The translations under genes were made by a program, and so were the position numbers. From a virus, in IMG/VR virus record IMGVR_UViG_3300009151_000303, positions 1 through 27,539 of that record: 27,539 bases of DNA; one strand, given 5' to 3'. Each line of letters starts with the position of its first letter. The stretch's first letter is position 1. Shown here in pieces: positions 2,033 to 21,077 of the stretch. The notes beneath the pieces were generated by a model. It had not been told where the DNA came from. It searched no databases and saw nothing but the letters and a program-made list of their open reading frames with translations.

Positions 2033-3778
2033 ATGTTAAATATACAAAAGGCATCCCTATTAACTAACGGCAATCAAGTTACTTTGACAATGCCTATTTC
2101 TAAGGTTGATGCTGAAAAACGTATTGTTTCAGGCTTTGCTACACTTGATAATATTGATAAACAAGGTGATCGTGTAGATTCTTCAGCATCTGAAAAAGCA
2201 TTTGCTAACTTTCGTGGTAATGTAAGATTAATGCATCAACCTATTCCTGCTGGAAAGATTGTATCATTTAGAACAGATTCATTTTATGATCCAGAAACAC
2301 AAAAAACATATAACGGTGTTTATGTAGATGCTTATATCTCAAAAGGTGCATCTGACATTTGGGAAATGGTTCTTGATGGTACACTTACTGGTTTTTCAAT
2401 CGGTGGTGCTGTAAAAGATTCAACTAGTGAGTTTGATGAATCATTAGATAAAACAGTTCGTGTAATTAAAGAATATGACTTGGTTGAGTTATCCCTTGTC
2501 GATTCTCCAGCAAATCAACTCGCTAATATTTTTTCTATTCAAAAGACTATTGATGGCGATGTAGCTACTGGTATCTTTAATAAGTCACATATTCAAAATG
2601 TATTTTGGTGTGAGCAAGATGATATTGCTTTTACATCATCTGATGATAACTATACTTGTGTTAATTGTAATAATGATTTAACTGCAGTCGGTTGGGTAGA
2701 TGAACTTGAAAAATCAGATATTGAAAAAGCAATTAATGACTTAGTGTCTATAGTTAAAGATACTGCTGCAGGTGCAGTTACAAATAATGAAACTATTAAT
2801 AGATATCCCAAACAAAATCCTTATAAAACAAAGAAAAAACCAGAAGAAGATATGACAAAAGCTGGTTCTCATTCTACTGGAGATTTTGTTCAGTGGGGAT
2901 CATCGGGTGGTACAGCAAGAGGAAAGATAACAAGAGTAGTAACTAATGGTAAAATAAAAGTACCGAACTCTGACTTTTCAGTTACTGGAACTAAGGATGA
3001 TCCAGCGGTTGTTATTAGAGTTTATCAGAAAGATGGAGATTCTTGGAAACCATCACAAACACTTGTAGGACATAAAATGAGCAGTTTGAAGGGATGGTCT
3101 ACTAAAGTTAAAAAATTCTTTAGTCCATCAGACACACAAGTTTTACTGAACAATGATTCAGTAGATATGGCAATTAACAAGGATATGTCGGTTGCCACCC
3201 AAAATAATGAAGGAGGTGTTGAAATGACTGACAACACAGAGGCTACAGAAGTAGCAGAAGAAGTAATTGTTGACGAAGTTGTTGAGGCGGAAGAGGTTGC
3301 TGTAGAAGCAGCAGATGAAGTTCCAGCAGAAGCTCCTGCAGAAGAGGCTGCAGTAGAAGTTAACGAAGAAACAGTCGAAGAAGCTGCAGAAGCAGTTGAC
3401 GCTTCCACCGATTCAGGTGAAGCGACTGACCTTGAAAAAACACTAAGCGAAATCAAAAATTTTGTTGGCGAAGCACTCGTAAAGAATGCAGATGCTAATG
3501 TTGAAGCTGTATCTAATGTTGCAAATACATTGGCAGAAGTTACAAAAGCTCTTACAGAAAAACTAACAGAAACAGAAAATCGTTATGAAGAGTTAAACAA
3601 AGGTTTGGCAGACATCACAAAGGCTCTGACTCAAGTAAATGGAAGACTTGAATCAGTAGAGAATGATACTGCTGTTAAAAAGTCTGGAGAACTAGATAGT
3701 TCTTCAGAAACAACTATAGAGAAATCAGAATCTCTATGGGGGGGACGCTTCCTCGGCTCCGCTCAATACTTAAACTGA
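2033..3778 (+). CDS. Prohead protease fused to capsid scaffold (XkdF/HK97-type protease domain)
   Basis: A 581-residue multidomain head-maturation protein. Residues 15-170 match the XkdF/HK97 protease pattern: GFATLDNIDKQGD, then LMHQ with candidate catalytic H68, then GFSIGG with candidate S122, then ELSLVDSPAN with candidate E152. Residues 185-215 hold C193 and a C209-x2-C212 pair, a possible small metal site. Residues 275-350 form a compact beta-rich domain (GDFVQWGSSGGTARGKI to VGHKMSSL) of a small Tudor/SH3-like type. Residues 398-470 are strongly acidic (Glu/Ala/Val), 470-555 are predicted coiled coil, and the end is SLWGGRFLGSAQYLN. The protease would process scaffold and capsid inside the prohead. 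No Shine-Dalgarno precedes ATG 2033. A strong internal ribosome site suggests the scaffold is also made alone. Confidence 0.85.
   Translation: MLNIQKASLLTNGNQVTLTMPISKVDAEKRIVSGFATLDNIDKQGDRVDSSASEKAFANFRGNVRLMHQPIPAGKIVSFRTDSFYDPETQKTYNGVYVDAYISKGASDIWEMVLDGTLTGFSIGGAVKDSTSEFDESLDKTVRVIKEYDLVELSLVDSPANQLANIFSIQKTIDGDVATGIFNKSHIQNVFWCEQDDIAFTSSDDNYTCVNCNNDLTAVGWVDELEKSDIEKAINDLVSIVKDTAAGAVTNNETINRYPKQNPYKTKKKPEEDMTKAGSHSTGDFVQWGSSGGTARGKITRVVTNGKIKVPNSDFSVTGTKDDPAVVIRVYQKDGDSWKPSQTLVGHKMSSLKGWSTKVKKFFSPSDTQVLLNNDSVDMAINKDMSVATQNNEGGVEMTDNTEATEVAEEVIVDEVVEAEEVAVEAADEVPAEAPAEEAAVEVNEETVEEAAEAVDASTDSGEATDLEKTLSEIKNFVGEALVKNADANVEAVSNVANTLAEVTKALTEKLTETENRYEELNKGLADITKALTQVNGRLESVENDTAVKKSGELDSSSETTIEKSESLWGGRFLGSAQYLN
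3211..3218 (+). promoter_or_regulatory. Internal consensus ribosome binding site for a nested scaffold
   Basis: AGGAGGTG matches the 16S anti-Shine-Dalgarno over eight bases and is followed, after TTGAA, by an ATG at 3224 in frame with the surrounding gene. It lies at the junction between the beta-rich domain and the acidic scaffold region, and is stronger than any site found at ordinary gene starts here except that of the tail tube gene. Confidence 0.7.
3224..3778 (+). CDS. Nested in-frame scaffold protein (internal start of the protease gene)
   Basis: Translation from the ATG at 3224 would give the last 184 residues of the protease-scaffold protein: an acidic Glu/Val/Ala-rich segment, a heptad-like helical region (for example TLAEVTKALTEKLTETENRY) and a C-terminal WGGRF-containing tail that could contact the capsid protein. 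Composition and length are typical of siphovirus scaffolds, which direct capsid curvature and are then removed by the protease. The arrangement parallels phage lambda, where Nu3 starts inside and in frame with C. The evidence is the near-perfect Shine-Dalgarno plus the domain boundary. Expression as a separate product is an inference. Confidence 0.6.
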   Translation: MTDNTEATEVAEEVIVDEVVEAEEVAVEAADEVPAEAPAEEAAVEVNEETVEEAAEAVDASTDSGEATDLEKTLSEIKNFVGEALVKNADANVEAVSNVANTLAEVTKALTEKLTETENRYEELNKGLADITKALTQVNGRLESVENDTAVKKSGELDSSSETTIEKSESLWGGRFLGSAQYLN

Positions 3779-3810
3779 AAATAAAAAAGAAAAGGTAGGT
3801 GAAATAAATA

Positions 3811-4872
3811 ATGAGTGATATTTTAGAAAAAGCAACTAACTCTGGTACAGTGGTAACACAAGGTACCAAGAATGGTGATATGTATTCATTCGGTAATACC
3901 CAAGACGGTACTCAAGGTGGTGTATTGCAACCAAAACAGTCTGCACAGTTTATCGATTACGTCTTTGATCAGATGGTGCTTGCACAAGATGGTCGTAAGG
4001 TTTTGATGACAGCTAATACTATGGAACTTGATAAAATTCGTGTTGGTACACGTTTGGTATCTAAGGCTACTCAGGCTGATCAGTCTGATGTTTTTGGTTA
4101 CACAAACAAAGGTGCAATCTTCACAAAGTTGGATCTTACAACAACAAAGTTCCGTCTAGATTACGAACTTTCAACAGAATCTCTAGAAGATTCAATCGAA
4201 GGTTCTTCTCTTGAGGATCACGTTGTACGTTTGATGGCAACTCAGTTCGGTAACGATCTTGAGGATATTGCTATCAATGGTCGTACAGGTACTTCTGGTA
4301 ATGGTTCTTACGATAATACTATTGCAGGTTTCTACAATAGAGTACTTGATACATCAGCAACAGGTCACGAAGCAGCAGCTAATTCAGCAGCTATGGCAGG
4401 AATCTGGGCATCTGGTGCAGCAAGTACAGCTAAGTTCAGTCTAGATGCCCTTGAAGCAATTTACAATGCATTGCCTCGTAAATTCAAGGCTCGTAGACAG
4501 GATCTTAAGTTCTATATGAACAGCCAGCATATCCAAGAATTGTTGACAGAACTTCGTACAGTTAATCAGGCTACAAAGTCTGTTCCGTTCGAAACTGCAC
4601 AGCGTGTTCTTGATGGTGTTACACCAAGAATTGGTGGTCCAGCAGGTGCAACTTACTCTGTATTTGGTCTTCCAGTACAGGAAGTTCCTTTGTACCCAAC
4701 TGGTTTCGTAGACATTACGTTCCCGCAAAACAGAATCTGGGGTTTCCAGAGAGATGTTACGGTGCACAAGTTCTTCGTACCAAAGAAAGATTCTATCGAA
4801 TATACAGTGTATGTTCGTTTGGGTCTTGCGTTGGAAGAAAAGTCAGCTATTGCCTACGGCAAGCAGGTTTAA
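3811..4872 (+). CDS. Major capsid protein
   Basis: A 353-residue protein directly after the protease/scaffold gene, the expected place for the shell protein. The region TTTKFRLDYELSTESLEDSI followed by GSSLEDHVVRLMATQFGNDLEDIAINGRTG (residues about 110-165) is the spine helix and following strand pattern of HK97-fold capsid proteins. GSSTEL-type connector motifs are absent, and the C-terminus (VYVRLGLALEEKSAIAYGKQV) is typical of the family. AGGTGA lies 8 bases before ATG 3811. Codon use differs from neighbouring genes: Phe is mostly TTC, Lys often AAG and Arg often CGT, as expected for a very highly translated gene. A strong hairpin terminator follows. Confidence 0.9.
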   Translation: MSDILEKATNSGTVVTQGTKNGDMYSFGNTQDGTQGGVLQPKQSAQFIDYVFDQMVLAQDGRKVLMTANTMELDKIRVGTRLVSKATQADQSDVFGYTNKGAIFTKLDLTTTKFRLDYELSTESLEDSIEGSSLEDHVVRLMATQFGNDLEDIAINGRTGTSGNGSYDNTIAGFYNRVLDTSATGHEAAANSAAMAGIWASGAASTAKFSLDALEAIYNALPRKFKARRQDLKFYMNSQHIQELLTELRTVNQATKSVPFETAQRVLDGVTPRIGGPAGATYSVFGLPVQEVPLYPTGFVDITFPQNRIWGFQRDVTVHKFFVPKKDSIEYTVYVRLGLALEEKSAIAYGKQV

Positions 4873-9109: not shown

Positions 9110-9442
9110 ATGGCTACAAAAATATACGAATCTATTGAGATGGAATTACAGGACGGCACAGTAATTACCGTTAAACCACTCAATCTTAAAAACTTAAGAG
9201 AAGTAATGAAGAAGTGGAAAGAAATCGAAACTAAAGATAGTGAAGATGGTTTCTTGGAGACTCTCATTGAATGTACATCTATTGCTATGAAGCAATTCGC
9301 ACCTGAGCTTTCGGAGATTGACAAACTTGAAGAAGTTTTAGATCTTCAATCTATGTATAAAATATTGGAGGTTGCTGCAGACATCAAGCTTAACGACCCA
9401 AACCTACTAATGGCAGCTCAGGAACTAGCTGGAACGAGCTAG
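9110..9442 (+). CDS. Tail assembly chaperone, short product (gpG-like)
   Basis: A 110-residue acidic protein beginning MATKIYESIEMELQDGTVITVKPL, followed by helices rich in Glu and Lys. This is the form of the small tail assembly chaperone that coats the tape measure protein while the tube polymerises. It lies between the tail tube and tape measure genes, the conserved location. The reading frame stops at 9440-9442. Forty-three bases before the stop codon is a slippery heptamer from which a fraction of ribosomes should move to the -1 frame and make a longer form. Confidence 0.85.
   Translation: MATKIYESIEMELQDGTVITVKPLNLKNLREVMKKWKEIETKDSEDGFLETLIECTSIAMKQFAPELSEIDKLEEVLDLQSMYKILEVAADIKLNDPNLLMAAQELAGTS
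9397..9403 (+). promoter_or_regulatory. Programmed -1 ribosomal frameshift site
   Basis: CCCAAAC is in the correct phase (C CCA AAC) for tandem slippage of the chaperone mRNA. The -1 frame has its last upstream stop (TAA) at 9391-9393, just before the site, and is then open to 9774. I saw no obvious long downstream stem; one was not needed for the call. Confidence 0.85.
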
Positions 9443-9774
9443 ACTTAGCTGCCTTGGAATCAGAAGTATTCCTATTAGGTCACTGGAAAGACTATGAAGA
9501 ACTGGAAAACAGTTTATCAATGTCAGAGCTTATTGCTACACTAGGGGCTATGCACGAAAAAGAAAATCGTCAAAATAAATTTCTTGCTGCTATACAAGGT
9601 ATAGATATTTCTGGATCAGAACAGCCTGTGGATAACTCTTTGCCAACATTAGAAGATATTGTTGGAAGAGCAGCTGCAAAAGTTAGTGGAAATATGGAAC
9701 AAGCAAATGCAATAACTTTTGGTATTCACGAAGATGAAGGTCTTGGATACAGTATGATGGGATATGATCTATAG
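9403..9774 (+). CDS. Tail assembly chaperone, -1 frameshift extension (gpT-like)
   Basis: This is the second half of the gpG-T-type fusion. Ribosomes that slip at 9397-9403 add 123 residues after residue 98 of the short form, giving a product of about 221 residues. The extension reads GTSWNELDLAALESEVFLLG, then HWKDYEELENSLSMSELIATL, then MHEKENRQNKF, a pattern familiar from chaperone C-terminal parts in gram-positive-type phages, where this part recruits tail tube subunits to the tape measure. A TTG at 9454 could in principle start it independently, but no Shine-Dalgarno precedes it and conserved-looking residues extend upstream of it, so frameshift expression is preferred. The stop TAG overlaps the GTG start of the tape measure gene. 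Confidence 0.82.
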   Translation, partial: PTNGSSGTSWNELDLAALESEVFLLGHWKDYEELENSLSMSELIATLGAMHEKENRQNKFLAAIQGIDISGSEQPVDNSLPTLEDIVGRAAAKVSGNMEQANAITFGIHEDEGLGYSMMGYDL

Positions 9775-12700
9775 TGACTGGTATTGATGCTTATTTTAAA
9801 TATAATGCTGATTTTGGTCCAGTCATTAATCAAATGCGTTTGTTACAAACGCAAGCAAATCTTTTAAATCAAACACTTCAAAATTTTGATAAACAAGCAT
9901 CTTCATTAAAAATGAGTCTTGGAGACTCTCTTGCTAGTGATATTGGTAAGATGGGTGGCTGGAATGCCAAAGTCGTAGAACTATCTGACTCTGTTGGACA
10001 GTTTGGTAAATCCCTTGAGAAACAAGAATTAACTTTAAAGCAATATGCAAAAGAAGGAATTGGTGCTTTTAGTAAAGCATCTAATGCACACAAACTAGCA
10101 GTTCGTGAAGTTTCTCGTGAAATGTCACAACTTGCTGTCCTTGGTGAAAAGGGTGGCAAGCAACTGGGTATGATGATTACCCCACAAAATATTAATCTAA
10201 ATGATTTTAATACAAAGCTTGCTGTTTCTAGAAAACAGTTTGATATCTTTAATACTCTTGTTCAAGATGGTGCAACAAAGTTAATTAACTTTGGTAAAAA
10301 TACACAGTGGGCTGGTAGACAGATTACTGTTGGTCTTACAGTACCATTAGTAACTTGGGGAACTCAAATGTCAAAGATTTTTCGTGAAGTTAATGTTGAA
10401 TTAACTAGATTCCAAAAAGTTTATGGTTCTGGTCTTATGTCTTCTGCAGATCCAGAAACATTAAAAATGACAGAAAATGTAAAGCAACTAGCTATTGAAT
10501 TTTCCAAAACTATGGGTATTGCTGCAAAAGATACCGCATCCCTTGCTGCTGATTTAGCAGCAACAGGTGCTGAAGGAGAAAAACTTCTTGCATCATTAAG
10601 AGAAACAACAAGACTTGCTGTACTTGGAGATGTGTCAAATGCAGATGCAATGAAAACTACACTTTCTCTTACAAATGCTTTTAAAATTAAAACAAATGAA
10701 CTTGCACACTCTGTTGACTTCTTAAATGCTGTAGAAAACCAAACATCTCTTTCTTTGCAAGATTTGACAGCAGCTATTCCAAAAGCTGGTCCAGTCGTTA
10801 AAGCACTTGGTGGAGATGTAAAAGATTTATCTCTTATGATGGTTGCTCTTAAAGAGGGTGGTATTTCTGCAGCAGAAGGTGCTAATGCTGTTAAATCTGC
10901 TATGGCATCTATGATAAATCCTACAACAAAAGCAAAAAAGGTTGCAAAGGAATATGGTATTGATGTTGAAGGTATCGTTAAAGCAAATAAAGGTCAACTT
11001 ATGCCAACAATTATTGCTTTCAAACAACAACTTGAGTTACTTAATGATTTTGGTAAATCTCAGGTTATTGAAAATATATTTGGTAAATATCAGTTTGCCC
11101 GTATCTCTGCTCTTTTTGATAACCTAGATGCAAGTGGTTCTCAAACAAGACAAGTTATGGATTTGATGGGTAAGTCTGCAAAAGACCTTGCTGCTAATTC
11201 ATACATGGAAATGGATACACTTATGAATAGTGGTGCTAAGAGATTTCAAAGAGCAACAGAATCTATTAAAGCACAGTTCATTGATATTGGTGGTTCTATT
11301 ACAAGTGCTATTACTCCAATTATTGAGAATGTAAGTAAAAAAATTGGTCAGGTTATAAAGTTTTTTGAAAAACTTCCTGCTCCTGTTAAATCTTTCTTAA
11401 AAGTAGCTGCTGGTCTTGCTGTAATTGCTGGTCCAATTATTATGATTGCTGGTGTTTTTGCTAACTTTTTAGGTTATGTAACTAAGGGTGCTATGAGTAT
11501 AGTAAATCTTGGTAGAAAAATGGCTGGCGTTCCTGTTGATAAATTTAAGATGCTTGATGATACACAACTTATGGCACAAAAGTCTACAGATGCATTATCT
11601 ATGGCTTTTGATCAACAAAAAACAAGTGTAGAAAAACTTAATGCAGTTCTTGAAGTTTACAAAAAACATCTTGGCGATGCTATTACATTAAATCCAGGAT
11701 TTGTTAATCAACAAGTTTCTGCTCAAACTACTACTGGTCAACCACCAGTCGCTAAGTTTCAAACTGGTGGATCTGCTTGGGTTCCAGGAAGTGGTAATGG
11801 AGATAAAGTTCCAGCAATGCTTGAGCCTGGAGAATATGTTGTAAATAAAAAAGCAGCATCCCAACACTCTGGACTTCTTGATGAAATTAATTTTAAACAA
11901 GCACCTCGTTTTCAAACTGGCGGTAGAATAAATGGATATGCAAATAAATCATTTTTTGGTGATGCAAAGTTTACTCCAGAAGATCTACAGATTGCATTAA
12001 AATCTTGGATTTCTCCAATGATGACTGGTCTTAGACCATTTAATGATCCATTAAAACGTGGAGGCATTCAACCATATGGTGAAAGATATCCTGGATTCTT
12101 TGCTGATATATTTAATCAATCAATGACACCACAAGAAAATAAGCACTTTATGCGAGCAATGCAGTTTGATAAAAAAGGTGGTAACTGGTCTCCAACTGCT
12201 GGAAGCATTATGGAAGACATTCAAATGGCTCAAAATGGAACTGTAACCTCTCCTAGATTAGGATATAGCAATGCACCATTTAGTCATACCACAACAAGAT
12301 TTACATCATTTAGTACAGTTCAAGAAGCAGAGTTTTACAAACGATTTATGTCTATGTTTGATAAACCAAAAAACAAACGTAGTGCAGAGTCTCGTGCAGC
12401 AAAGATTGAATCTGGACAAATATTCCCATACCTCCTTGATTTATGGACTGGTAAAGGTAATGGTATTAATGGTATTCCAGTGTCTGATTTATTCCAAGGT
12501 CAAACTCAATATGGAAATGAAGGTGAAACAGTTCTTCCAGGTGGTATAAAAATGCCAATAACTGGGTATGGTCAAGACATTGCATCAAGAATGCTTATGC
12601 TTCATTCTGTAATGCCAGGAGCTACTAAAACTATTAATGGTCGTGAAGTTCCTATATTCCAAACTGGCGGTAGAGTTAATAACTATGCTGATCAATCATT

Positions 12701-15700
12701 ACTTGAAACATTAAGAGATTGGCAATCTAATCCACAATATGTGAGACAAGATCCAGAGCGTACTGGACAAATATTATCTGCATTATCTCCAATTCAACAA
12801 TCAATGATGCTTAGAAGAAAAACAGAACTTGGTGTTCCTGGAGAAATGCCAAAAGCACAACAATTAATGATTCTTAAAGCAATAGAGTCTGGAAATTTTG
12901 ATAAAGTTCTTGGCAAAGAATTTTCATTTTCTGGAAAGTTTTCTTCATATACAGACAAAGGTTTAGATTGGCTTTCAAATAAAGAGTTTGTTCCAAGTAA
13001 ATTAAGAGAAATGTTTTTCAAAAAAGACAGTCAAAAAAATATTGAAAAATGGTATGCTGGAATGGAAAGAGCATATGAACAATATAAAAGCAAAGATTCT
13101 ATGCAACATATGCTTGGAAAACTTTATCTTACTAGAGATTATAATTTTGGTAATCGTAATGATGAGGTTGATGAAGAAGCAGTAATTCAAGCATTAACTG
13201 TTGGAAAACAAAGATCATTAGCCAGTAGTCAAAAAGAAATAGATGCTGCAAGACCATTTGGTATGGATCCAAAATCTGTAATTCTTCAAAGAATGTTCCA
13301 ATCTGGAAGTAGAATGCTTGATGTTTCATCAGCAAGTCCAGATGGAACACATATGGGAAATCCTCTTAATGAAGGTGAGTGGCTTGCTGGTAAAGGTAAA
13401 GGAACTTTAGATGCAGTATCTCAATTATGGATGCCACCAGATAAATTTATTGGTGGACAAAAAGCATATGATGAAAGAAAAATGCATATGCCAATGCTTC
13501 TTAACTTTAAACAAATGGGTGGAAGAATAAATAATTATGAATCCAAGTCATTAATGCCTGAAAAGTTTGCTACAAGAATGGAAGATATAAATGCTGTTCT
13601 TGCTGCAACTCATCAAGAAGCAACTACTGGTGAATATTCATCAATGCCTCTTACAGATATTGGTCAAAAGATTTCTGGAATGGGTGGATTTAGTTCTGTT
13701 ATTCCAGGTGCTAATGGTATTTATGAAATCGGTGGTAAAAAGTATGTAGTTAAAACTCATAACACCGCACAGTCTGCAAGAATTGAAGCAATATCATCAC
13801 AGATTACAAGAGACCTATTTGGTCTTGATTCTCCAGCACAAGAATTAATTAAGTTCTTACATCCAGAAACAAGCCAACACGTATTTGGTGTGCGTTCACC
13901 ATTTGAAGAAAGATTTGGAAAAACAACTAATAATGTTGGAGTTGAGCATTTCTTTACACAAGCACTTGCAGCAATTATTAGAGGAGATTCTGATTTACAA
14001 CCAGATAATTTATTTGATGGAATGGTTGTTGATCAAGGTGCAGGTTATGCAGCAGATAGAGCATCACAACCACGTTCATTAACTGGAAAAAAATATTCAG
14101 TACTTGACCAAGCAAGAGTTAACTTCCTTATGCAAACAGGTGCTTCAAAGAAATGGTTTACACAAGCAACTGCTGGTCTTGCTGCAGGTATGACAGATGA
14201 ACAATATACATCTGGCTTCCTGAATGCTATTGCTCAAGCTCAAGGAAATCTTCCAAGAGCTATGGCTAACATTGAAAAGTTTGGATTAACTCCACAAGAA
14301 AAAGCTATTTATGGATTAATTTCTGGAGATCTAGAAGCTGCTAAAGCAATTAATTGGGCAGAAATTAGACAACATCATGCAGGTGTTACTGTTCCAATAG
14401 TTAAGCCAAAGACACAAGCAGCTATTGATAAAGCAGCAGCAAAGAAAATAACAGATAAAGCAGAGTTACAACAAGCACTTGCAGCAGGATTCCCAGAATG
14501 GATGCTTCAGGGTGGAAATAAAAATGCTTCAACGGTTAAAAGTGCTGCTAGTGGTATGGGTGCTCAATCAAAGAGTCTTGTAACAACATTTGCTAGAATG
14601 AACCCTCCACACGCTGGTCATGGAATATTACTAGATGAAGCAGCTAATTATGCAAAACAGATAGGTGCTGACTTTAGATTTAGTCTTTCATTAAAAGAAG
14701 GTGATGCAAAGAATCCATTCTCAGTATCTGAAAAGTATGACCTATTTAAAATGATGTTCCCACAATATGTTGGAAACCTTGAGCCAAACTCTGGTGCAAA
14801 AGGAATTAAGGGACAGATTGAAGAATGGGCAAAAGCTGGCTATAATCAAGCACACTTATTCTTAGGTTCTGATCAAGTTCCAAAGTTTGGTAACTTTTTT
14901 CCTAGACAAGCAAAAGATTTTGGTATAGATGCATTTGTTCATTCTGTTGGAAGAACAGAAGGTGGTATGTCTGCAACACAACTTCGTGAAGCAATCGCAA
15001 GTGGCAATATAAATGCTCTTATGCCATTTATTCCAGCAGGACTACCACAATCACAAAAAATGGCTATTGCAAATAAACTAATGGGCAAGAAAGATATCAT
15101 TGCTGGCTTTGCTGAAAAAGCACAAAGTAGAAGAGTTAAGAGTGCTGCAAATGGAATGGCATTTGCACATATTGTTCCAGGAACAGATCTTGGCTCAAAT
15201 ATTAATTTAAAATATCCTCTTGGGTTTGATGTTCCTAGTTCAATAAATAAAACCCTTAATAATAATAATCCATTGGTAGATAAAAAAGAACTTATTAGTA
15301 ACTTTAAAGAACCAAAAGCAATAGAAACAATGAAAAATGCTTTTAGAACATTTTCAAAAAAATATCCAGAATCAAGTATTAAAGCAGGAATGGAAACTGG
15401 TATACAAGAAGCTGCAATAAACACTCTTAAAGATGCCGAACCAAAACTTAATGATTCAATGTTATATGCAGAATCTTTCCAAGAACCTTTAATAAAACAA
15501 GCATTTAATGAGTTTAAAAAATATGAATATCTTGCTGGATTTAGAGCAAATGTTAGCCCAACAACTCTTAAAGAAGCTAACTTTACAACAGATGGAAGTT
15601 GGGATAAGGTAGAAAATGGAGATATACTTACCTCTCCAGATGGAAAAATTAAAGTTAGAGTTAAAAAAGTTGGTGATAGAACTAAATTTGTAGATGCAGA

Positions 15701-18700
15701 AACTGGAAAAATAAATATGTTAGGTTCACCTTCACAATCATCAGATACTAGATCTTTAACAAATAAGCCTTTACTTAATTATTTAACAGGAAGAGGTGAA
15801 TTTAGCGATAGAATAAACAATTTTGCTGATGATTCTATGATTATTAGAAATCACACTTGGGCAAAGAAAGCATCTGCACCAAAACAATATGAAGGTATCT
15901 TAAGAACATTACCAGATTGGGCTACAAAAGGTACAGAAGCACAAGCTATATTAGCAGCATTACAATCTGCAGGTGTTAGTGGTTCAGATAGATTAGCTTC
16001 ATATTATGTACAAGATGTATTAGCTCATATTAATCCAACATCTACAAATACTGGTGAAGTATATACAAAGGTTTGGGAAGCTGCAAATCTTATGAAAGAT
16101 TCTCAGCTTTATAACGTATTCCTTGAAACTATTAAAACTAGAAAAGATATTCAAAGTCGTGGTGGTCTTGTAGCCCCACACGTTGTTGAAGCAGTTATGG
16201 CACAAACAGGATTGCCACAAGGCATTGTAATTCAAGAACTTCAAAGTCTTTCTAATGGTAAGCATCCAAATACTAGACAAGGTGCTATGGTCATGCTTGC
16301 TCTTGCAAGAATATTCCCACAATCTACAAAAGCTGGAAGAGGTCTTCCAATCGGTGTAGCAGCAGGTTTACAGGCAAGATTACAAGGTAATTTTTATGAA
16401 ACTTTACAATCTAGAGAGTTGCCTTCTAATCTTCCAACAGTTAAAGTTGTTGCTACAAATACAGGAACTAAAACACCTCAATCAAGAAGTCGTACAACTC
16501 TTCCAGGAACACCTACAATGCCAAAGATTGTTTATCCATCTATGGCAGGTGGCGGAGATAGAATTAGTGGCACTGGAGCAACAGTTAATGTAAGTCCTGA
16601 TGGAAAAATTCTTTCAAGCACTATTGATGATATGTTAGTTACATCTGCAAGTGGTCAACCTATGGCTGTTTCAAGTCGTGAACTTTTGGCGGTTACTCCA
16701 GATGGTAAAGTAGCAGGTGTTACAAGTCCAGGAGATGAAGCAAGAAAGAAGATTGTTCATCCATTTGGAACATCATTAATTCGTGGTAAAAACTTTAGAG
16801 CACAATCTGCAGCAGATGGAACTTTACCAGTATATATGGATAATATACAAGGCGGTAGTATGACTAACTTCCTTGGAAGCCTATCTGAAATGACTGGAAT
16901 TGTTGGTCAGTTACAATTTGCAGTTTCATCATTTACCAATGAAGTAGAAAATGGAAAACAAAAATGGCTTGCTGGTATTGAATTAGGTGCAACTTCACTT
17001 CAAAAAATTGCAGATTCTGGTATGGGTGCTTTTGGAGAAAGATTAAAAACTAAAGGTCAAGAAATGCAAGTTCAAGGTGCATTAGATCCTAAAAAATGGA
17101 GAGGTAGTTTACAAGGTGGTTTAGGTAAAGCAGCTTCTGGTATTGGTGGTGCAATTAGTGGAATTGGAAACTTCCTTGGTGGTCCAGTTGGACAAATTGC
17201 ACTTCAAGGAACTATTGCTCTTATTAATAAAGGTGTTGAGACATATAATGCTGAAATGGAAAAAGCAGCAAAAGCAGGTAAAGCAGCATTTGCAGAACCA
17301 ACTGAAACAGCAAAATATCTTGGTATTCAATTAAAATCATTAACTGGAGATACAGAAAGATATGCTAAATTTGCAGAATCTATGTTTGGTGCACTTGGTA
17401 AAGGTGCATATGATATAGGTTATTCAAAAGTTGTTAAAAAAGATTATGGTGACTTAATAGATGTTGTTAGAAATACTAATACGGAACAAGAAAAATCTAA
17501 TCAATTAATGACTGCATATTCTAATTTAATTATGAAGGGTATGGATCCTAAGAATGCAAAACAAGTAACTGCTGAAATAGCTAGACAATCTGGTTCATTG
17601 GGAGCATATTTAAAAATTAAAGATCAGTTTGGCAAAAAAGATACAGTAAGAGATGCAATGGCAAATGAACAAAAAACATTGCAAAGTCAAATAGATATTC
17701 TTCAAAAAAGAAGAATGCAAGCAGAAACAACAAAAGATTATAGTGTAAATGCTGATGCTGTAAATAAAGCAGTATTTGGAAAAAATCAAGGAACTTGGTG
17801 GGCAAAAGCATTAACTGGAACAAGTTTAGATAGAACTTCATTGGTTCAATGGATGGGCAAGAGTTTAATTCAAGAGCAAACTAGAAAACAGATTGCTGTT
17901 CAGATTGGACAAACGTTACAATCTGCATTCTCTATAGCAGCACAAGATCCAAAAGCATCAAATGATGCAACAAAGGCAATCATTGCACAGTTTAAAAATG
18001 CTGACTGGGCAAAATTAGGTAAAGAAGTATCTCAGATAGCAGAAGGTTTAGGTTTTGGAGCAACATCTAATATTGGACAATACATTGCTGATACAAGTTC
18101 TGAAGGGTTTAGAAATGCAGGTAATCTATCTCAAGAAGTATTTTTAAATGCTTTAAAGTCTGGATTAGGTCCAGAAATAGAAAAAATGCTTAGAGATGGA
18201 TATCTTACATACACAGAACAGGCATTGATTTCACAGAAGACATTAGAAGCACAAAGTGCTATGAAAATTGATTTTGAAGTTGATTTGCAAATAGATCAAA
18301 GTATTAAACAAATGGATGATTTAAAAGCAAAAGTCCAAGATACTTTTGATGCTGCTATTGCTGTAAAACAAAAAGATTTAGATGCAGAAGATAAGCGTCA
18401 TGATAAAGCACTTACAAACCTCGATAAAGAAGCTGAAAAGATTGGCAAGAAAAAAGATTTACTTCAAGAAAATACAGACTATTATCTTAAAGAACTACAA
18501 AGAGAAAAAGAAGCAGAAGATTATTATGCAAAGCAGAGAGAAACCGCTATTGGTGGATTAAAGTCTTTAGCTTCTGGAGATGTATTTGGATTTATTGGTG
18601 CTCAACAACAAGCAGCATCTCAAGCAGATCAATTCGGTAGAGATCGTTCAATTCAAAATATTCAAGACACTGCTGATGAGGAGCAAAAGAAACTTGATAA

Positions 18701-21077
18701 TGCATTAAAGGGTATTGATGATAGAAAGAAAGCAGAAGATGATAGACATAAAGCTGAAACAGATAATATCAATAAAGAGATTGAGTTTTTGCAAAAAAAA
18801 CGTGCTTTAACTGTTGGAGATATTAATGAGGCTGTTAAACTACTTGAAGATGCAAAAGCAATGGGACCTGTACAAAATCTTGATAAAAAAAGCAAAGATG
18901 TATATAATAAAAAAATTGCTCAAGCCTATGCAAAAGCTGGTACTGCAATAGATGATGTAAAGGCAATGGCTGGTTATCTTCCAACAAAAGGTGGAGATAA
19001 AGATACTATGACTGCTCTTAAAAAAGCAGAAACCGCACAATCAAAATCTTTAGCAGCATTCCAAAATGATACAGAAACTGCTATGCAATATGTTGCAACA
19101 CAAGTTAATGGTAAATGGAAAGTTATTGTTGGTGGTTTAACAACGGCATCAAAGAAAATATTTGATGAAACAGCAACAAGTTTAGGTATATCTATTGGAA
19201 CAAAGCTATATCAAGCAGCTATGAATAATGTTATTGCTGGTCAAAATAGTAAAGCTGGTGTATATGGTGCTACAACAAATGAAAAAGGTGTAACTACTAC
19301 TACTAAGGGAGCATCAGATCTTTTAACAGGAGCATTAACTCAGTTTACAACATATCTTCAAGAAAATAACATAAAACCACCAGAGTGGAGTCAAGTTATT
19401 AGTAAGGGTGGCATGACAGATGGTATGGCAGAATATAACTCATTTTATGAAGATCCAAATCACCCAGGTAAATTTTGGAGATTAGATAAGGGTAAGAATT
19501 TTAAAGGAACTGAAGGTTATCATAGTGAAGAGCAAGCAAGAAGAATGGCTGGTATGGGTGATTATATTTATTCTTGGAGTGAAAGTACAGATGGAAAATA
19601 TACAGAATTGCCACGTTTAAAGGATGGTGGTCCAATATATGGTGCTGGCACATCTAGATCAGATTCTATACCAGCTATGCTTTCAAATGGAGAGTTTGTT
19701 GTTAATGCAAATGCAGCACAAAATAATATGGGTCTATTGCATTCAATTAATAATGGAGATGTTCCAAGATTTGGATGGGGTGGATGGGTAGGAGACATCT
19801 TTGATTCTGTTAAAAATAAAGTTACTAGTACTGTCTCTAGTGTTGGAAAAACTGTAAGTTCTGCTATTCATAACCCTGGTGCTTTTATAAAAAATACTGT
19901 ACAGTCAGGAATACAAGCAGCAAAAAATACTATTAATTCTGTTAAAAAATATGGACCAACACTATGGAATGGAATTAAAAAAGTTGGCTCATATGTAGCA
20001 GATAATTTCTTGGGCGTAGATGATTTTAGAAGTATGTATAATCACTTTAAAAAAGGTGAATGGGGTGCTGGATTTAAATCACTAGGTACTGGAGTACTTG
20101 AATTAGGTGGAACTGCCCTTATGTTTGTTCCAGGTGCTGGACAAGTAGCTATGGCTGCAAAAATAGCAAACTTAGCAAACAAAGCAACAAAAATAGGAAA
20201 ACTTGGAAAAGTGATAGCTGGAATTAATGATATTAAATCTATGGCAAAAGTTGGGACAGAAGCAGAAAATGTTATTGGTGGAATTAGAACAGCAAAAGCA
20301 ATGAGAAAAATATCTAGTATGGGATCTCAGGCATTAAAAGGATATGAGATATATGATAAAGCAAATACTGCAATTTTAGGAACAAATGCATTATATGATG
20401 TTGCTACTGGACAAATGACAGAAAAAGATGCAGAAGTTTTTCTGTCAAATACTTCAAGATTTGGTCTTACTAAATTTTTCAAAAAGCATGAAAATCTTAT
20501 GGGGCTTGAAAATGGCATCACTGAAACAATTAATACTGTTAAAGAAACTCAATCAGAGGGGTCCGACCCAATTCTTAGTGGAGTTAAAGATATTTTTTCA
20601 AAAAAGAAATCATCTATAACTACCGAACCTAGTTCTTCTTTGAACTATTTTACTAAATCTTTGTTTGCTAGTGGTGGACATATAAGCGGTCCTGGAGGTC
20701 CTCGTTCAGATGTAATACCAGCAATGCTTTCAAACGGTGAGTTTGTAGTTCAAGCAGATGCTGTTTCAAAATATGGCGTTCCATTTATGAATGCTATAAA
20801 TAGTAAAAAATATGCAAATGGTGGTGGTGTTGGAGTAATGCCAAGAACCTCAGTTCCGTCTTCTCCTACATATAGTATTCCTTCAACACCATCCATTTCT
20901 CCATCTGGTATAGCATCTATTGCACAATATAATGGCGGTGGATATGCAGAAGGTAATAGCAATAATCCAACATATCATTTTAACTTTAATGGTGCAGGTA
21001 TGGATATGGTTATGGGTCACGTTAATAAAGCTATGGGTGGTACAATAAATAATAACTCAAGAGGGGTTTACTGTTAA
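9774..21077 (+). CDS. Giant tape measure protein with embedded enzyme-like domains
   Basis: This 3767-residue protein would set tail length and occupy the tail lumen. The GTG start overlaps the chaperone stop. Residues 1-150 are helical. Residues about 175-510 look like the TP901-type core (SLAADLAATGAEGEKLLASL, TNAFKIKTNELAHSVDFLNA). Residues about 533-570 are a hydrophobic membrane segment after LPAPVKSF. Residues about 660-2340 hold modular insertions: two ADP-ribosyltransferase-like modules, a kinase-fold module, a nucleotidyltransferase and two regions of unknown type. Residues about 2420-2450 are a second Gly-rich hydrophobic stretch. Residues 2833-2930 and 2970-3031 are coiled coils rich in Lys, Glu and Asp. 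The C-terminal part has another hydrophobic region (about 3440-3475) and Gly/Asn-rich ends. Ordinary siphovirus tape measures are about 700-2000 residues. The base composition of the inserts resembles the rest, so there is no sign of very recent transfer. Confidence 0.93.
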   Translation: MTGIDAYFKYNADFGPVINQMRLLQTQANLLNQTLQNFDKQASSLKMSLGDSLASDIGKMGGWNAKVVELSDSVGQFGKSLEKQELTLKQYAKEGIGAFSKASNAHKLAVREVSREMSQLAVLGEKGGKQLGMMITPQNINLNDFNTKLAVSRKQFDIFNTLVQDGATKLINFGKNTQWAGRQITVGLTVPLVTWGTQMSKIFREVNVELTRFQKVYGSGLMSSADPETLKMTENVKQLAIEFSKTMGIAAKDTASLAADLAATGAEGEKLLASLRETTRLAVLGDVSNADAMKTTLSLTNAFKIKTNELAHSVDFLNAVENQTSLSLQDLTAAIPKAGPVVKALGGDVKDLSLMMVALKEGGISAAEGANAVKSAMASMINPTTKAKKVAKEYGIDVEGIVKANKGQLMPTIIAFKQQLELLNDFGKSQVIENIFGKYQFARISALFDNLDASGSQTRQVMDLMGKSAKDLAANSYMEMDTLMNSGAKRFQRATESIKAQFIDIGGSITSAITPIIENVSKKIGQVIKFFEKLPAPVKSFLKVAAGLAVIAGPIIMIAGVFANFLGYVTKGAMSIVNLGRKMAGVPVDKFKMLDDTQLMAQKSTDALSMAFDQQKTSVEKLNAVLEVYKKHLGDAITLNPGFVNQQVSAQTTTGQPPVAKFQTGGSAWVPGSGNGDKVPAMLEPGEYVVNKKAASQHSGLLDEINFKQAPRFQTGGRINGYANKSFFGDAKFTPEDLQIALKSWISPMMTGLRPFNDPLKRGGIQPYGERYPGFFADIFNQSMTPQENKHFMRAMQFDKKGGNWSPTAGSIMEDIQMAQNGTVTSPRLGYSNAPFSHTTTRFTSFSTVQEAEFYKRFMSMFDKPKNKRSAESRAAKIESGQIFPYLLDLWTGKGNGINGIPVSDLFQGQTQYGNEGETVLPGGIKMPITGYGQDIASRMLMLHSVMPGATKTINGREVPIFQTGGRVNNYADQSLLETLRDWQSNPQYVRQDPERTGQILSALSPIQQSMMLRRKTELGVPGEMPKAQQLMILKAIESGNFDKVLGKEFSFSGKFSSYTDKGLDWLSNKEFVPSKLREMFFKKDSQKNIEKWYAGMERAYEQYKSKDSMQHMLGKLYLTRDYNFGNRNDEVDEEAVIQALTVGKQRSLASSQKEIDAARPFGMDPKSVILQRMFQSGSRMLDVSSASPDGTHMGNPLNEGEWLAGKGKGTLDAVSQLWMPPDKFIGGQKAYDERKMHMPMLLNFKQMGGRINNYESKSLMPEKFATRMEDINAVLAATHQEATTGEYSSMPLTDIGQKISGMGGFSSVIPGANGIYEIGGKKYVVKTHNTAQSARIEAISSQITRDLFGLDSPAQELIKFLHPETSQHVFGVRSPFEERFGKTTNNVGVEHFFTQALAAIIRGDSDLQPDNLFDGMVVDQGAGYAADRASQPRSLTGKKYSVLDQARVNFLMQTGASKKWFTQATAGLAAGMTDEQYTSGFLNAIAQAQGNLPRAMANIEKFGLTPQEKAIYGLISGDLEAAKAINWAEIRQHHAGVTVPIVKPKTQAAIDKAAAKKITDKAELQQALAAGFPEWMLQGGNKNASTVKSAASGMGAQSKSLVTTFARMNPPHAGHGILLDEAANYAKQIGADFRFSLSLKEGDAKNPFSVSEKYDLFKMMFPQYVGNLEPNSGAKGIKGQIEEWAKAGYNQAHLFLGSDQVPKFGNFFPRQAKDFGIDAFVHSVGRTEGGMSATQLREAIASGNINALMPFIPAGLPQSQKMAIANKLMGKKDIIAGFAEKAQSRRVKSAANGMAFAHIVPGTDLGSNINLKYPLGFDVPSSINKTLNNNNPLVDKKELISNFKEPKAIETMKNAFRTFSKKYPESSIKAGMETGIQEAAINTLKDAEPKLNDSMLYAESFQEPLIKQAFNEFKKYEYLAGFRANVSPTTLKEANFTTDGSWDKVENGDILTSPDGKIKVRVKKVGDRTKFVDAETGKINMLGSPSQSSDTRSLTNKPLLNYLTGRGEFSDRINNFADDSMIIRNHTWAKKASAPKQYEGILRTLPDWATKGTEAQAILAALQSAGVSGSDRLASYYVQDVLAHINPTSTNTGEVYTKVWEAANLMKDSQLYNVFLETIKTRKDIQSRGGLVAPHVVEAVMAQTGLPQGIVIQELQSLSNGKHPNTRQGAMVMLALARIFPQSTKAGRGLPIGVAAGLQARLQGNFYETLQSRELPSNLPTVKVVATNTGTKTPQSRSRTTLPGTPTMPKIVYPSMAGGGDRISGTGATVNVSPDGKILSSTIDDMLVTSASGQPMAVSSRELLAVTPDGKVAGVTSPGDEARKKIVHPFGTSLIRGKNFRAQSAADGTLPVYMDNIQGGSMTNFLGSLSEMTGIVGQLQFAVSSFTNEVENGKQKWLAGIELGATSLQKIADSGMGAFGERLKTKGQEMQVQGALDPKKWRGSLQGGLGKAASGIGGAISGIGNFLGGPVGQIALQGTIALINKGVETYNAEMEKAAKAGKAAFAEPTETAKYLGIQLKSLTGDTERYAKFAESMFGALGKGAYDIGYSKVVKKDYGDLIDVVRNTNTEQEKSNQLMTAYSNLIMKGMDPKNAKQVTAEIARQSGSLGAYLKIKDQFGKKDTVRDAMANEQKTLQSQIDILQKRRMQAETTKDYSVNADAVNKAVFGKNQGTWWAKALTGTSLDRTSLVQWMGKSLIQEQTRKQIAVQIGQTLQSAFSIAAQDPKASNDATKAIIAQFKNADWAKLGKEVSQIAEGLGFGATSNIGQYIADTSSEGFRNAGNLSQEVFLNALKSGLGPEIEKMLRDGYLTYTEQALISQKTLEAQSAMKIDFEVDLQIDQSIKQMDDLKAKVQDTFDAAIAVKQKDLDAEDKRHDKALTNLDKEAEKIGKKKDLLQENTDYYLKELQREKEAEDYYAKQRETAIGGLKSLASGDVFGFIGAQQQAASQADQFGRDRSIQNIQDTADEEQKKLDNALKGIDDRKKAEDDRHKAETDNINKEIEFLQKKRALTVGDINEAVKLLEDAKAMGPVQNLDKKSKDVYNKKIAQAYAKAGTAIDDVKAMAGYLPTKGGDKDTMTALKKAETAQSKSLAAFQNDTETAMQYVATQVNGKWKVIVGGLTTASKKIFDETATSLGISIGTKLYQAAMNNVIAGQNSKAGVYGATTNEKGVTTTTKGASDLLTGALTQFTTYLQENNIKPPEWSQVISKGGMTDGMAEYNSFYEDPNHPGKFWRLDKGKNFKGTEGYHSEEQARRMAGMGDYIYSWSESTDGKYTELPRLKDGGPIYGAGTSRSDSIPAMLSNGEFVVNANAAQNNMGLLHSINNGDVPRFGWGGWVGDIFDSVKNKVTSTVSSVGKTVSSAIHNPGAFIKNTVQSGIQAAKNTINSVKKYGPTLWNGIKKVGSYVADNFLGVDDFRSMYNHFKKGEWGAGFKSLGTGVLELGGTALMFVPGAGQVAMAAKIANLANKATKIGKLGKVIAGINDIKSMAKVGTEAENVIGGIRTAKAMRKISSMGSQALKGYEIYDKANTAILGTNALYDVATGQMTEKDAEVFLSNTSRFGLTKFFKKHENLMGLENGITETINTVKETQSEGSDPILSGVKDIFSKKKSSITTEPSSSLNYFTKSLFASGGHISGPGGPRSDVIPAMLSNGEFVVQADAVSKYGVPFMNAINSKKYANGGGVGVMPRTSVPSSPTYSIPSTPSISPSGIASIAQYNGGGYAEGNSNNPTYHFNFNGAGMDMVMGHVNKAMGGTINNNSRGVYC
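11811..11843 (+). repeat. PAMLEPGEYVV motif, copy 1 (residues 680-690)
   Basis: This motif, preceded by GSGNGDKV, is known from many tape measure proteins of actinobacterial and other phages. Its function is undetermined. Here it lies just before the insert cassette. Confidence 0.75.
11910..11951 (+). repeat. Linker repeat copy 1: FQTGGRINGYANKS (residues 713-726)
   Basis: This copy precedes the first ADP-ribosyltransferase-like module. A shorter partial copy, FQTGG, occurs 51 residues earlier at 662-666. Confidence 0.8.
11964..12647 (+). other. Tape-measure module 1: ADP-ribosyltransferase-like domain (residues about 731-958)
   Basis: The module lies between two FQTGG linkers. R842-FTSFST (S845-F-S847) followed by VQEAEFYKRF fits the STS-strand/helix pattern of R-S-E class ADP-ribosyltransferases. 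NEGETVLPGG at 915-924 fits the ExE catalytic turn (E916-G-E918) and its usual continuation (ExEVLLPxG), followed by a strand KMPITGY. The first-strand arginine is ambiguous (LKRGG or SPRLG). If the reading is right, the domain transfers ADP-ribose from NAD+ to a target, as phage T4 Alt does after injection. An unrelated domain with a chance ExE is possible. Confidence 0.45.
12657..12698 (+). repeat. Linker repeat copy 2: FQTGGRVNNYADQS (residues 962-975)
   Basis: This copy separates modules 1 and 2. Its bases CAAACTGGCGGTAGA are identical to those in copy 1, which points to duplication or recombination, not chance. Confidence 0.8.
12726..13502 (+). other. Tape-measure module 2: possible second ADP-ribosyltransferase-like domain (residues about 985-1243)
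   Basis: After the second NNYA linker comes a helical region, then LYLTRDY, then RSLASSQKEIDAARPFG (around 1147-1160), then SGSRMLDVSSAS and NEGEWLAGKGKG (E1200-G-E1202). The order R, S-rich strand with A..F, then ExE followed by WLxxxG matches the layout of the same fold as module 1. NEGE occurs at the equivalent place in both. Overall similarity between the modules is low, so this is a weaker call resting on motif order only. Confidence 0.33.
13506..13547 (+). repeat. Linker repeat copy 3: FKQMGGRINNYESKS (residues 1245-1259)
   Basis: This copy separates module 2 from the kinase-like module. It has one extra residue before GGRINNY and is more diverged at the DNA level than copies 1 and 2. 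Confidence 0.75.
13641..14273 (+). other. Tape-measure module 3: kinase-fold (HipA/PI-kinase-like) domain (residues about 1290-1500)
   Basis: GANGIYEIGGKKYVVKTH gives a Gly-loop-like hairpin with a candidate ATP-binding lysine K1327, followed by ARIEAISSQITRDLFG, which would place E of helix C. RGDSDLQPDNLF gives D1407xxxxN1412, and VVDQGAG gives D1420-x-G, the catalytic and metal-binding pattern of protein-kinase-fold phosphotransferases such as HipA or phosphatidylinositol-kinase-like enzymes. Spacing K to D (80 residues) and N to D (8 residues) is compatible with an active compact kinase. The substrate cannot be read from the sequence. Confidence 0.5.
14535..14558 (+). repeat. VKSAASGM repeat, left border of the nucleotidyltransferase module (residues 1588-1595)
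   Basis: This eight-residue motif recurs exactly 200 residues later as VKSAANGM. A weaker relative, AQSAADGT, is at 2343-2350. Confidence 0.65.
14568..15131 (+). other. Tape-measure module 4: nucleotidyltransferase, NMN-adenylyltransferase-like (residues about 1599-1786)
   Basis: This is the best supported insert. TTFARMNPPHAGH (1604-1616) is the N-terminal strand and HxGH nucleotide-binding signature of the HIGH superfamily. KEGDAKNPFSVSEKYDLFKMMFP, read as the usual KNP..VSEK..L...MFP block, follows. LFLGSDQ matches the GSD strand, and GGMSATQLREAIASGN (1730-1745) is the second signature (SxTxxR). Together these define enzymes that join a nucleotide to a phosphate, for example NMN plus ATP to NAD+. 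Phages encode similar proteins as free enzymes; here it is part of a tail protein. Both His residues and R1738 are present, so activity is likely. Confidence 0.85.
15135..15158 (+). repeat. VKSAANGM repeat, right border of the nucleotidyltransferase module (residues 1788-1795)
   Basis: The DNA of the two borders differs at several third positions, so the duplication is not recent or is kept by protein-level selection. Confidence 0.65.
15810..15836 (+). repeat. Linker repeat copy 4: RINNFADDS (residues 2013-2021)
   Basis: This degenerate copy lacks FQTGG and is preceded by YLTGRGEFSD. It begins a helical region (about 2022-2230) whose function I cannot read. Confidence 0.6.
19671..19703 (+). 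repeat. PAMLSNGEFVV motif, copy 2 (residues 3300-3310)
   Basis: It is preceded by GAGTSRSDSI and lies in the C-terminal part after the coiled coils. The residues are the same as in copy 3. Confidence 0.75.
20718..20750 (+). repeat. PAMLSNGEFVV motif, copy 3 (residues 3649-3659)
   Basis: It is preceded by GPGGPRSDVI. Copies 2 and 3 are near-identical at the DNA level, with only a few third-position changes, which suggests internal duplication. Confidence 0.75.

Follow-up and report, generated by a model that had tools for sequence, protein, structure and literature searches.

The tape measure protein (TMP) gene of the virus in IMG/VR record IMGVR_UViG_3300009151_000303 occupies positions 9774..21077 of the 27,539-nucleotide stretch analyzed here, which in its full length is referred to as the window, and encodes 3,767 amino acids from a GTG start. 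This protein appears to be a carrier of swappable effector modules that are most likely delivered at infection, a reading to which a probability of about 0.6 is given and in which delivery, catalysis and targets are what we infer. A sequence-only reading of the gene had described a multi-enzyme cassette lying inside a TMP; this anatomy was borne out, and the description is now widened to a TMP family with exchangeable modules. All features described below are on the + strand, residue numbers refer to the window TMP unless another is named, and related TMPs are given by label (L002 and so on).

The cassette is framed by two conserved parts. The TMP core (residues 147-655; 10212..11738) was matched by Pfam PhageMin_Tail (residues 238-437, E 7e-27) and by PHROG tape measure families (phrog_10030, residues 147-655, E 1.5e-101), and its hydropathy profile contains a single strongly hydrophobic segment at residues 538-570, in agreement with the core and membrane segment described earlier. 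The right anchor of the insertion zone is a conserved C-terminal helical domain (residues 2360-3066; 16851..18971); homology among relatives in this helical half was found to start at residue ~2360. In a comparison with 20 related TMPs in which both anchors are homologous, the interval from core to helical domain was 1,783 amino acids in the window, and among the relatives 436 in L015, 460 in L013, 505 in L018, 871 in L086 and 1,963 in L166; L002, truncated at its start, was left out of this comparison. The TMPs of Streptomyces phages BoomerJR and Gilson are 2,093 and 2,100 amino acids long, respectively, the window TMP being ~1,670 residues longer; apart from the core, an M23 peptidase is all that Pfam detects in them. 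When the C-terminal half was compared by profile with these Streptomyces phage TMPs, the match was weak (probability 72, 46 columns), so the case for an insertion relative to these phages leans mainly on the lengths and on the nearer relatives.

The kinase module (KIN; residues 1276-1560; 13599..14453) was characterized by model, structural matches and alignment. Its AlphaFold2 model has a mean predicted local distance difference test score (pLDDT) of 92.8, and VIA-align placed it nearest to CtkA (Z 11.7, root-mean-square deviation 4.1, 202 residues aligned), a CotH kinase (11.3) and the lipid kinase MavQ (11.2), with HipA (Z 9.5) and PI3K (about 8.8) among the further matches. The predicted structure confirms a bilobal atypical kinase fold of HipA/CotH/PI3-4K-like type. 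The residues of the putative active site are K1327, E1338, D1407, N1412 and D1420-x-G1422 in the window; in the alignment, K1327, D1407, N1412 and D1420 are invariant in 43 of 43 diverse copies, and E1338 is kept in at least 90%. KIN was present in 12 of the 80 TMP loci that had been fetched by core, and also in 80 loci from a dedicated scan with 338 candidates. Where the open reading frame (ORF) extends to the core region, KIN always lies inside a TMP, starting anywhere between residues ~740 and ~1355. Profile searches of PDB and Pfam gave sub-threshold kinase matches only, and cultured phages gave no match. A single weak match in GTDB genomes, on an Acetatifactor contig with ordinary chromosomal neighbors, was judged to be due to chance. 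In a Foldseek search of viral predicted structures, the best matches of the KIN model (3.7e-5) were very long phage proteins, and the nearest viral models include one annotated as portal, one as head morphogenesis and several as PI3/4-kinase. Judging from predicted structures, KIN-related kinases may thus also occur on other virion proteins.

Two modules precede KIN and resemble ADP-ribosyltransferases (ARTs). ART2 (residues 993-1250; 12750..13523) carries R1015, SSYT at 1057-1060 and E1200-G-E1202, and was defined by model, VIA-align and family alignment. All 50 of the VIA-align matches listed are ARTs of C3/VIP2/iota type (Z 9.5-7.9), with 140-159 residues aligned over model residues of about 253-535, corresponding to window residues 968-1250; pLDDT in the ART2 region of the joint ART1+ART2 model is about 45-92 by block. 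At the level of the modeled fold, ART2 is confirmed as an ART of the R-S-E class. Members of an ART-like family, marked by R, SFS and E-x-E patterns, recur in these TMPs in up to three tandem copies (L009, L166, L167), and in the alignment of 9 members R and one E are invariant, with SFS or SSY at the expected place. ART1 (residues 718-964; 11925..12665) is homologous in its second half to the ART-A modules of L002, L006, L009 and L085; its SFST (residues ~845-848) and E-G-E (916-918) align with those modules, and the candidate Arg near residue 794 is uncertain. Homology and motifs make ART1 a probable ART. A scan with the window ART2 alone found no relative. DUF6287 was set aside as an identity for the ART family, its match being weak, 18 residues long and below the cut-off.

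The nucleotidyltransferase module (NTase; residues 1582-1809; 14517..15200) was matched by phrog_3041 (E 4.5e-28) and phrog_395 (E 4.8e-16), and its relatives in cyanophages are annotated as cytidyltransferase or NMNAT. The motifs RMNPPHAGHG and MSATQLR mark it as HIGH-type, and RMNPPHAGHG and MSAxxLR are kept in 3 TMPs; the TMP of L076 holds a more distant copy. A sequence search of PDB gave no match. Profile match and intact motifs together confirm its assignment to the HIGH superfamily of nucleotidyltransferases. Other homologues (L177-L195) are phage proteins, mostly of 600-880 amino acids, with no match to the TMP core. Two further modules follow in the window and were delimited by comparison with relatives: M5 (residues 1832-2017; 15267..15824), common to L002, L003 and L006, and M6 (residues 2039-2229; 15888..16460), which is placed elsewhere in many TMPs. 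The cassette region does not form a continuous coiled coil, and at least the kinase and ART2 folds are present in it. Of the four enzyme modules originally proposed, the kinase fold, the ART at residues 993-1250 and the nucleotidyltransferase stood up, and the ART at residues 718-964 is probable only.

The modules are joined by a repeated linker, roughly QxGGR(I/V)(N/Q)(G/S/N)(Y/H)xxxS, which recurs between the modules of each TMP with similarity at the DNA level. Repeat analysis found three copies in the window, FQTGGRINGY (11910..11939), FQTGGRVNNY (12657..12686) and KQMGGRINNY (13509..13538), and a degenerate form, RINNFADDS, is seen in the sequence at the M5/M6 junction (15810..15836). GGR[IVL] was observed 3 times in the window, against 0.19 expected from shuffles. 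Comparison of homologous TMPs for blocks present or absent, which had been suggested together with the cassette, was positive. L002 has a 489-residue block (about 619-1108) that is absent from L085, with flanks that are 91-92% identical. Up to about residue 1758, L166 shares 92% identity with L167 and 97% with L009; beyond that joint it is 81% identical to L002 from residue 1746 on. These exchange joints coincide with linker copies, which fits a shuffling of cassettes by homology-assisted recombination at the linkers. The linker might also serve as a cleavage site.

For homologous modules of more than 80% identity, the ratio of nonsynonymous to synonymous substitution rates (dN/dS) was 0.08-0.33, in comparison with 0.08-0.19 for the core, and for KIN at 61% identity it was 0.29. 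By this measure of sequence change, the modules are shown to be under purifying selection.

How would such a cassette work? The siphophage tail is filled by a trimeric TMP, the C-termini of which lie at the baseplate; in 80alpha, the N-termini adjoin the DNA end (PMC11661146, PMC11445458). During injection, lambda TMP was labelled by ManZ-TurboID, beside ManYZ at the inner membrane (PMC13190303). Sle1, a TMP-related cargo whose functional domains are exchangeable, is loaded into a contractile injection system, and it has been proposed to adapt its conformation to the lumen prior to ejection (PMC13277306). Since the tail is filled with three copies of the TMP, which leave it at infection, the modules most likely come out together with the TMP. 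Their likely site would be the cytoplasm or its membrane face, given that ART, kinase and NTase all depend on NAD+ or ATP. NAD+, ATP and NTP, used by these three enzyme types, are cytoplasmic. In the proposed mechanism, the membrane-inserting core and the helical ruler would flank independently folded modules (ART1, ART2, the kinase, NTase and M5/M6), which would be gained, lost and swapped as blocks via recombination at the repeated linkers. Released with the expelled TMP, they would most likely act, as infection begins, on host targets located at the membrane or immediately inside it, the candidate reactions being ADP-ribosylation of protein or nucleic acid, phosphorylation and nucleotide transfer. 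A parallel can be drawn with virion-borne polyvalent proteins and with T4 Alt. The earlier suggestion of a polyprotein of effectors entering the cell with the DNA is consistent with enzymes of ATP/NAD+ type, with the retention of catalytic residues, with purifying selection and with the literature on lambda TMP.

Several points weigh against this proposal. The tail lumen measures about 40 Å, and three sets of 25-30 kDa domains in folded form would not obviously fit into it; the domains would need to be unfolded or thin, or to sit in another place. This lack of space is the main difficulty of delivery. Moreover, in the JBD30 model much of the TMP remains as a membrane channel, possibly leaving the cassette outside (PMC11445458). 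As to the enzymes themselves, Foldseek against PDB returned nothing at E <= 0.001 for the KIN model or for the ART1+ART2 model, and the evidence for ART2 is accordingly the uniform list of structural matches together with the pattern R1015, SSYT and E1200-G-E1202. The ART1 part of the model has pLDDT <50 and no usable fold, and searches of the ART family against known ARTs (Pfam, PHROGs, PDB profile search, T4 Alt profile comparison) gave no usable match. Finally, dN/dS is higher, at 0.56-0.59, in the two pairs that diverge most, one of ART2 and one of NTase.

Other explanations of the cassette were weighed. That an assembly chimera or a mis-called frame has fused a TMP to unrelated genes is a natural concern with an environmental virus contig of 27.5 kb, but the TMP is one uninterrupted open frame, the same modules occur in TMPs of many independent contigs from different metagenomes, and the tail genes are syntenic with those of Streptomyces phages; the independent contigs carrying the modules rule out mis-assembly, and this explanation as a whole can practically be dismissed. 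A late action, in which the TMP would be translated in large amounts and the cassette would work in the phage-producing cell or be excised at tail assembly and not be virion-borne, would avoid the problem of lumen size, and it agrees with the repeated GG-containing linkers between modules. Lambda TMP undergoes maturation cleavage, which counts in its favor, as does the fragmentation noted for 80alpha TMP (PMC11661146). However, it gives no reason for late enzymes to stay in the TMP frame of so many phages when they could be free genes, and neither a protease site nor an intein was identified in the window TMP. Late action is therefore considered unlikely.

The modules might instead act outside the cell or in its envelope during penetration, modifying protein or lipid as the hydrolase domains of TMPs act on the wall. 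Wall-active domains are indeed common in TMPs, the relatives studied here having OmpA, SLT, NlpC/P60, M15 and M23, and a lipid kinase is among the structural relatives of KIN. Yet the NAD+ or ATP needed by ART, kinase and NTase is scarce outside the membrane, and the wall-active domains of the relatives are mostly C-terminal, whereas the ART/kinase/NTase set lies mostly in the first zone, which makes an envelope role rather improbable. A purely structural role, with the modules as remnants that fill length or tune the tail and keep their folds without catalysis, could draw on the facts that TMP length sets tail length and that TMPs tolerate insertions (see also PMC13277306). It is very hard to reconcile with the invariant active-site residues of 43 kinase modules, the NTase motifs kept in 3 TMPs and the purifying selection on the modules, and globular domains make a poor ruler; such a role is given little chance.

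Delivery by TMPs may extend beyond this virus. A broader proposal, given somewhat less than even odds, is that in some phage TMPs the recombining cassette and a second zone near the C-terminus deliver ATP- and NAD+-using enzymes to the bacterium ahead of the genome, possibly cut at linkers. Other enzymes found at equivalent places in relatives, namely a PNKP-like phosphatase, an ABC1/APH-like kinase and three ARTs in tandem, speak for the carrier reading. A separator with the motif 'GGS.WVPGSGNGDKVPAMLEPGEYVVNKKA' first occurs at residues 660-705 (11751..11888), and the motif repeats near residues 3283-3330 and 3632-3681; the last two separators of the window TMP read VPAML/PGEFVV. The second variable zone lies from separator 2 to separator 3 (residues 3340-3630; 19791..20663), where relatives have further domains. 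In the window, these residues resemble the hydrophobic stretch that precedes the extra domains of relatives, and no such domain was recognized in them. The TMP of L096 (full length, 4,698 amino acids, as L173) combines KIN with a PNKP-like HAD phosphatase and an ART2-like module, and has a weak match to an Arr-like ART near its C-terminus (E 0.016). In L173, the HAD/PNKP-like phosphatase, a Cys/His-rich duplicate (CGEFGGIT..GMPC.NP..GQRCYLH) and the Arr-like ART were noted at residues 1655-1788, ~2270-2330, 2620-2660 and ~3900-3960. The TMP of L119 shows an ABC1/APH-like kinase signature near its C-terminus (E 5e-4, below the cut-off); at residues ~3000-3240, and likewise in L126, an ABC1/APH-type phosphotransferase pattern (HGDMHPGNLLL...AFDWG) marks a second effector-like zone. 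In L172, the TMP of L076, a candidate GNAT acetyltransferase and a further candidate ART (YRGL...SPT...HEGI) were picked out by eye at residues ~3090-3190 and 3700-3800.

The genomic setting of the gene is that of a virion block: portal, head protease, head proteins, connector, TMP and minor tail proteins. The TMP gene stands among tail genes, before those for minor tail proteins, in an order that matches Streptomyces phages. Two short ORFs at 9110-9442 and 9454-9774 occupy the place where tail assembly chaperones would sit. The best relatives of the portal (53% identity) and of the TMP core (about 34%) are from Streptomyces phages, so that the host may be an actinobacterium. The contig, 27.5 kb long and of environmental origin, lacks end repeats, and the G+C content of the window is about 0.34.

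What distinguishes this TMP from known systems? Polyvalent proteins (Iyer et al., 2017; PMC5512222) are likewise very long multidomain proteins with ARTs, kinases and nucleotidyltransferases among their enzymes, recombine in a cassette-like manner and are predicted to be injected. The combination that defines them, several conflict-type enzyme domains in one long phage protein, is also found in the window TMP. However, their kinases are protein-kinase-like without the C-terminal subdomain, and their nucleotidyltransferases are of Pol-beta type (PMC5512222), whereas KIN is HipA/CotH/PI3-4K-like and the NTase HIGH-type. Tape measures are mentioned neither in that paper (PMC5512222) nor in a survey of viral NAD+/ADPr. 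Phage T4 Alt is similarly an ART of the phage particle thought to be active at the very start of infection, but it is a separate head-packaged protein, and no sequence similarity to the present ART family was detected. TMPs with peptidoglycan hydrolase domains (mycobacteriophage TM4; M23 in BoomerJR and Gilson) also have enzyme domains embedded in the TMP, but those domains act on the cell wall, in contrast to the ATP/NAD+-type enzymes here, which make up an exchangeable series flanked by the core and the helical half. Sle1 and Tme (PMC13277306) share a TMP-like coiled coil, a functional domain that differs between species, a tail-like particle and an actinobacterial setting; unlike the window TMP, they take no part in phage infection and have a single C-terminal domain, with no ART or kinase mentioned. 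A phage TMP with such cytosolic enzymes was not found in the literature, in a search that left subscription journals mostly outside.

The TMPs of L085 and L002, which are near-identical but differ by ~490 residues, offer contrasting expectations: one tail would be ~70 nm longer than the other should the cassette form part of the ruler (1.5 Å per residue), and both would be of equal length if it stands outside the ruler. Should delivery take place, early effectors would travel in the phage tail itself, and siphophages could disarm the host before gene expression. The TMP would also represent a natural scaffold for delivering proteins, with cargo that can be exchanged. Early take-over of the host or counter-defence would then be served by the tail and not by the head alone.
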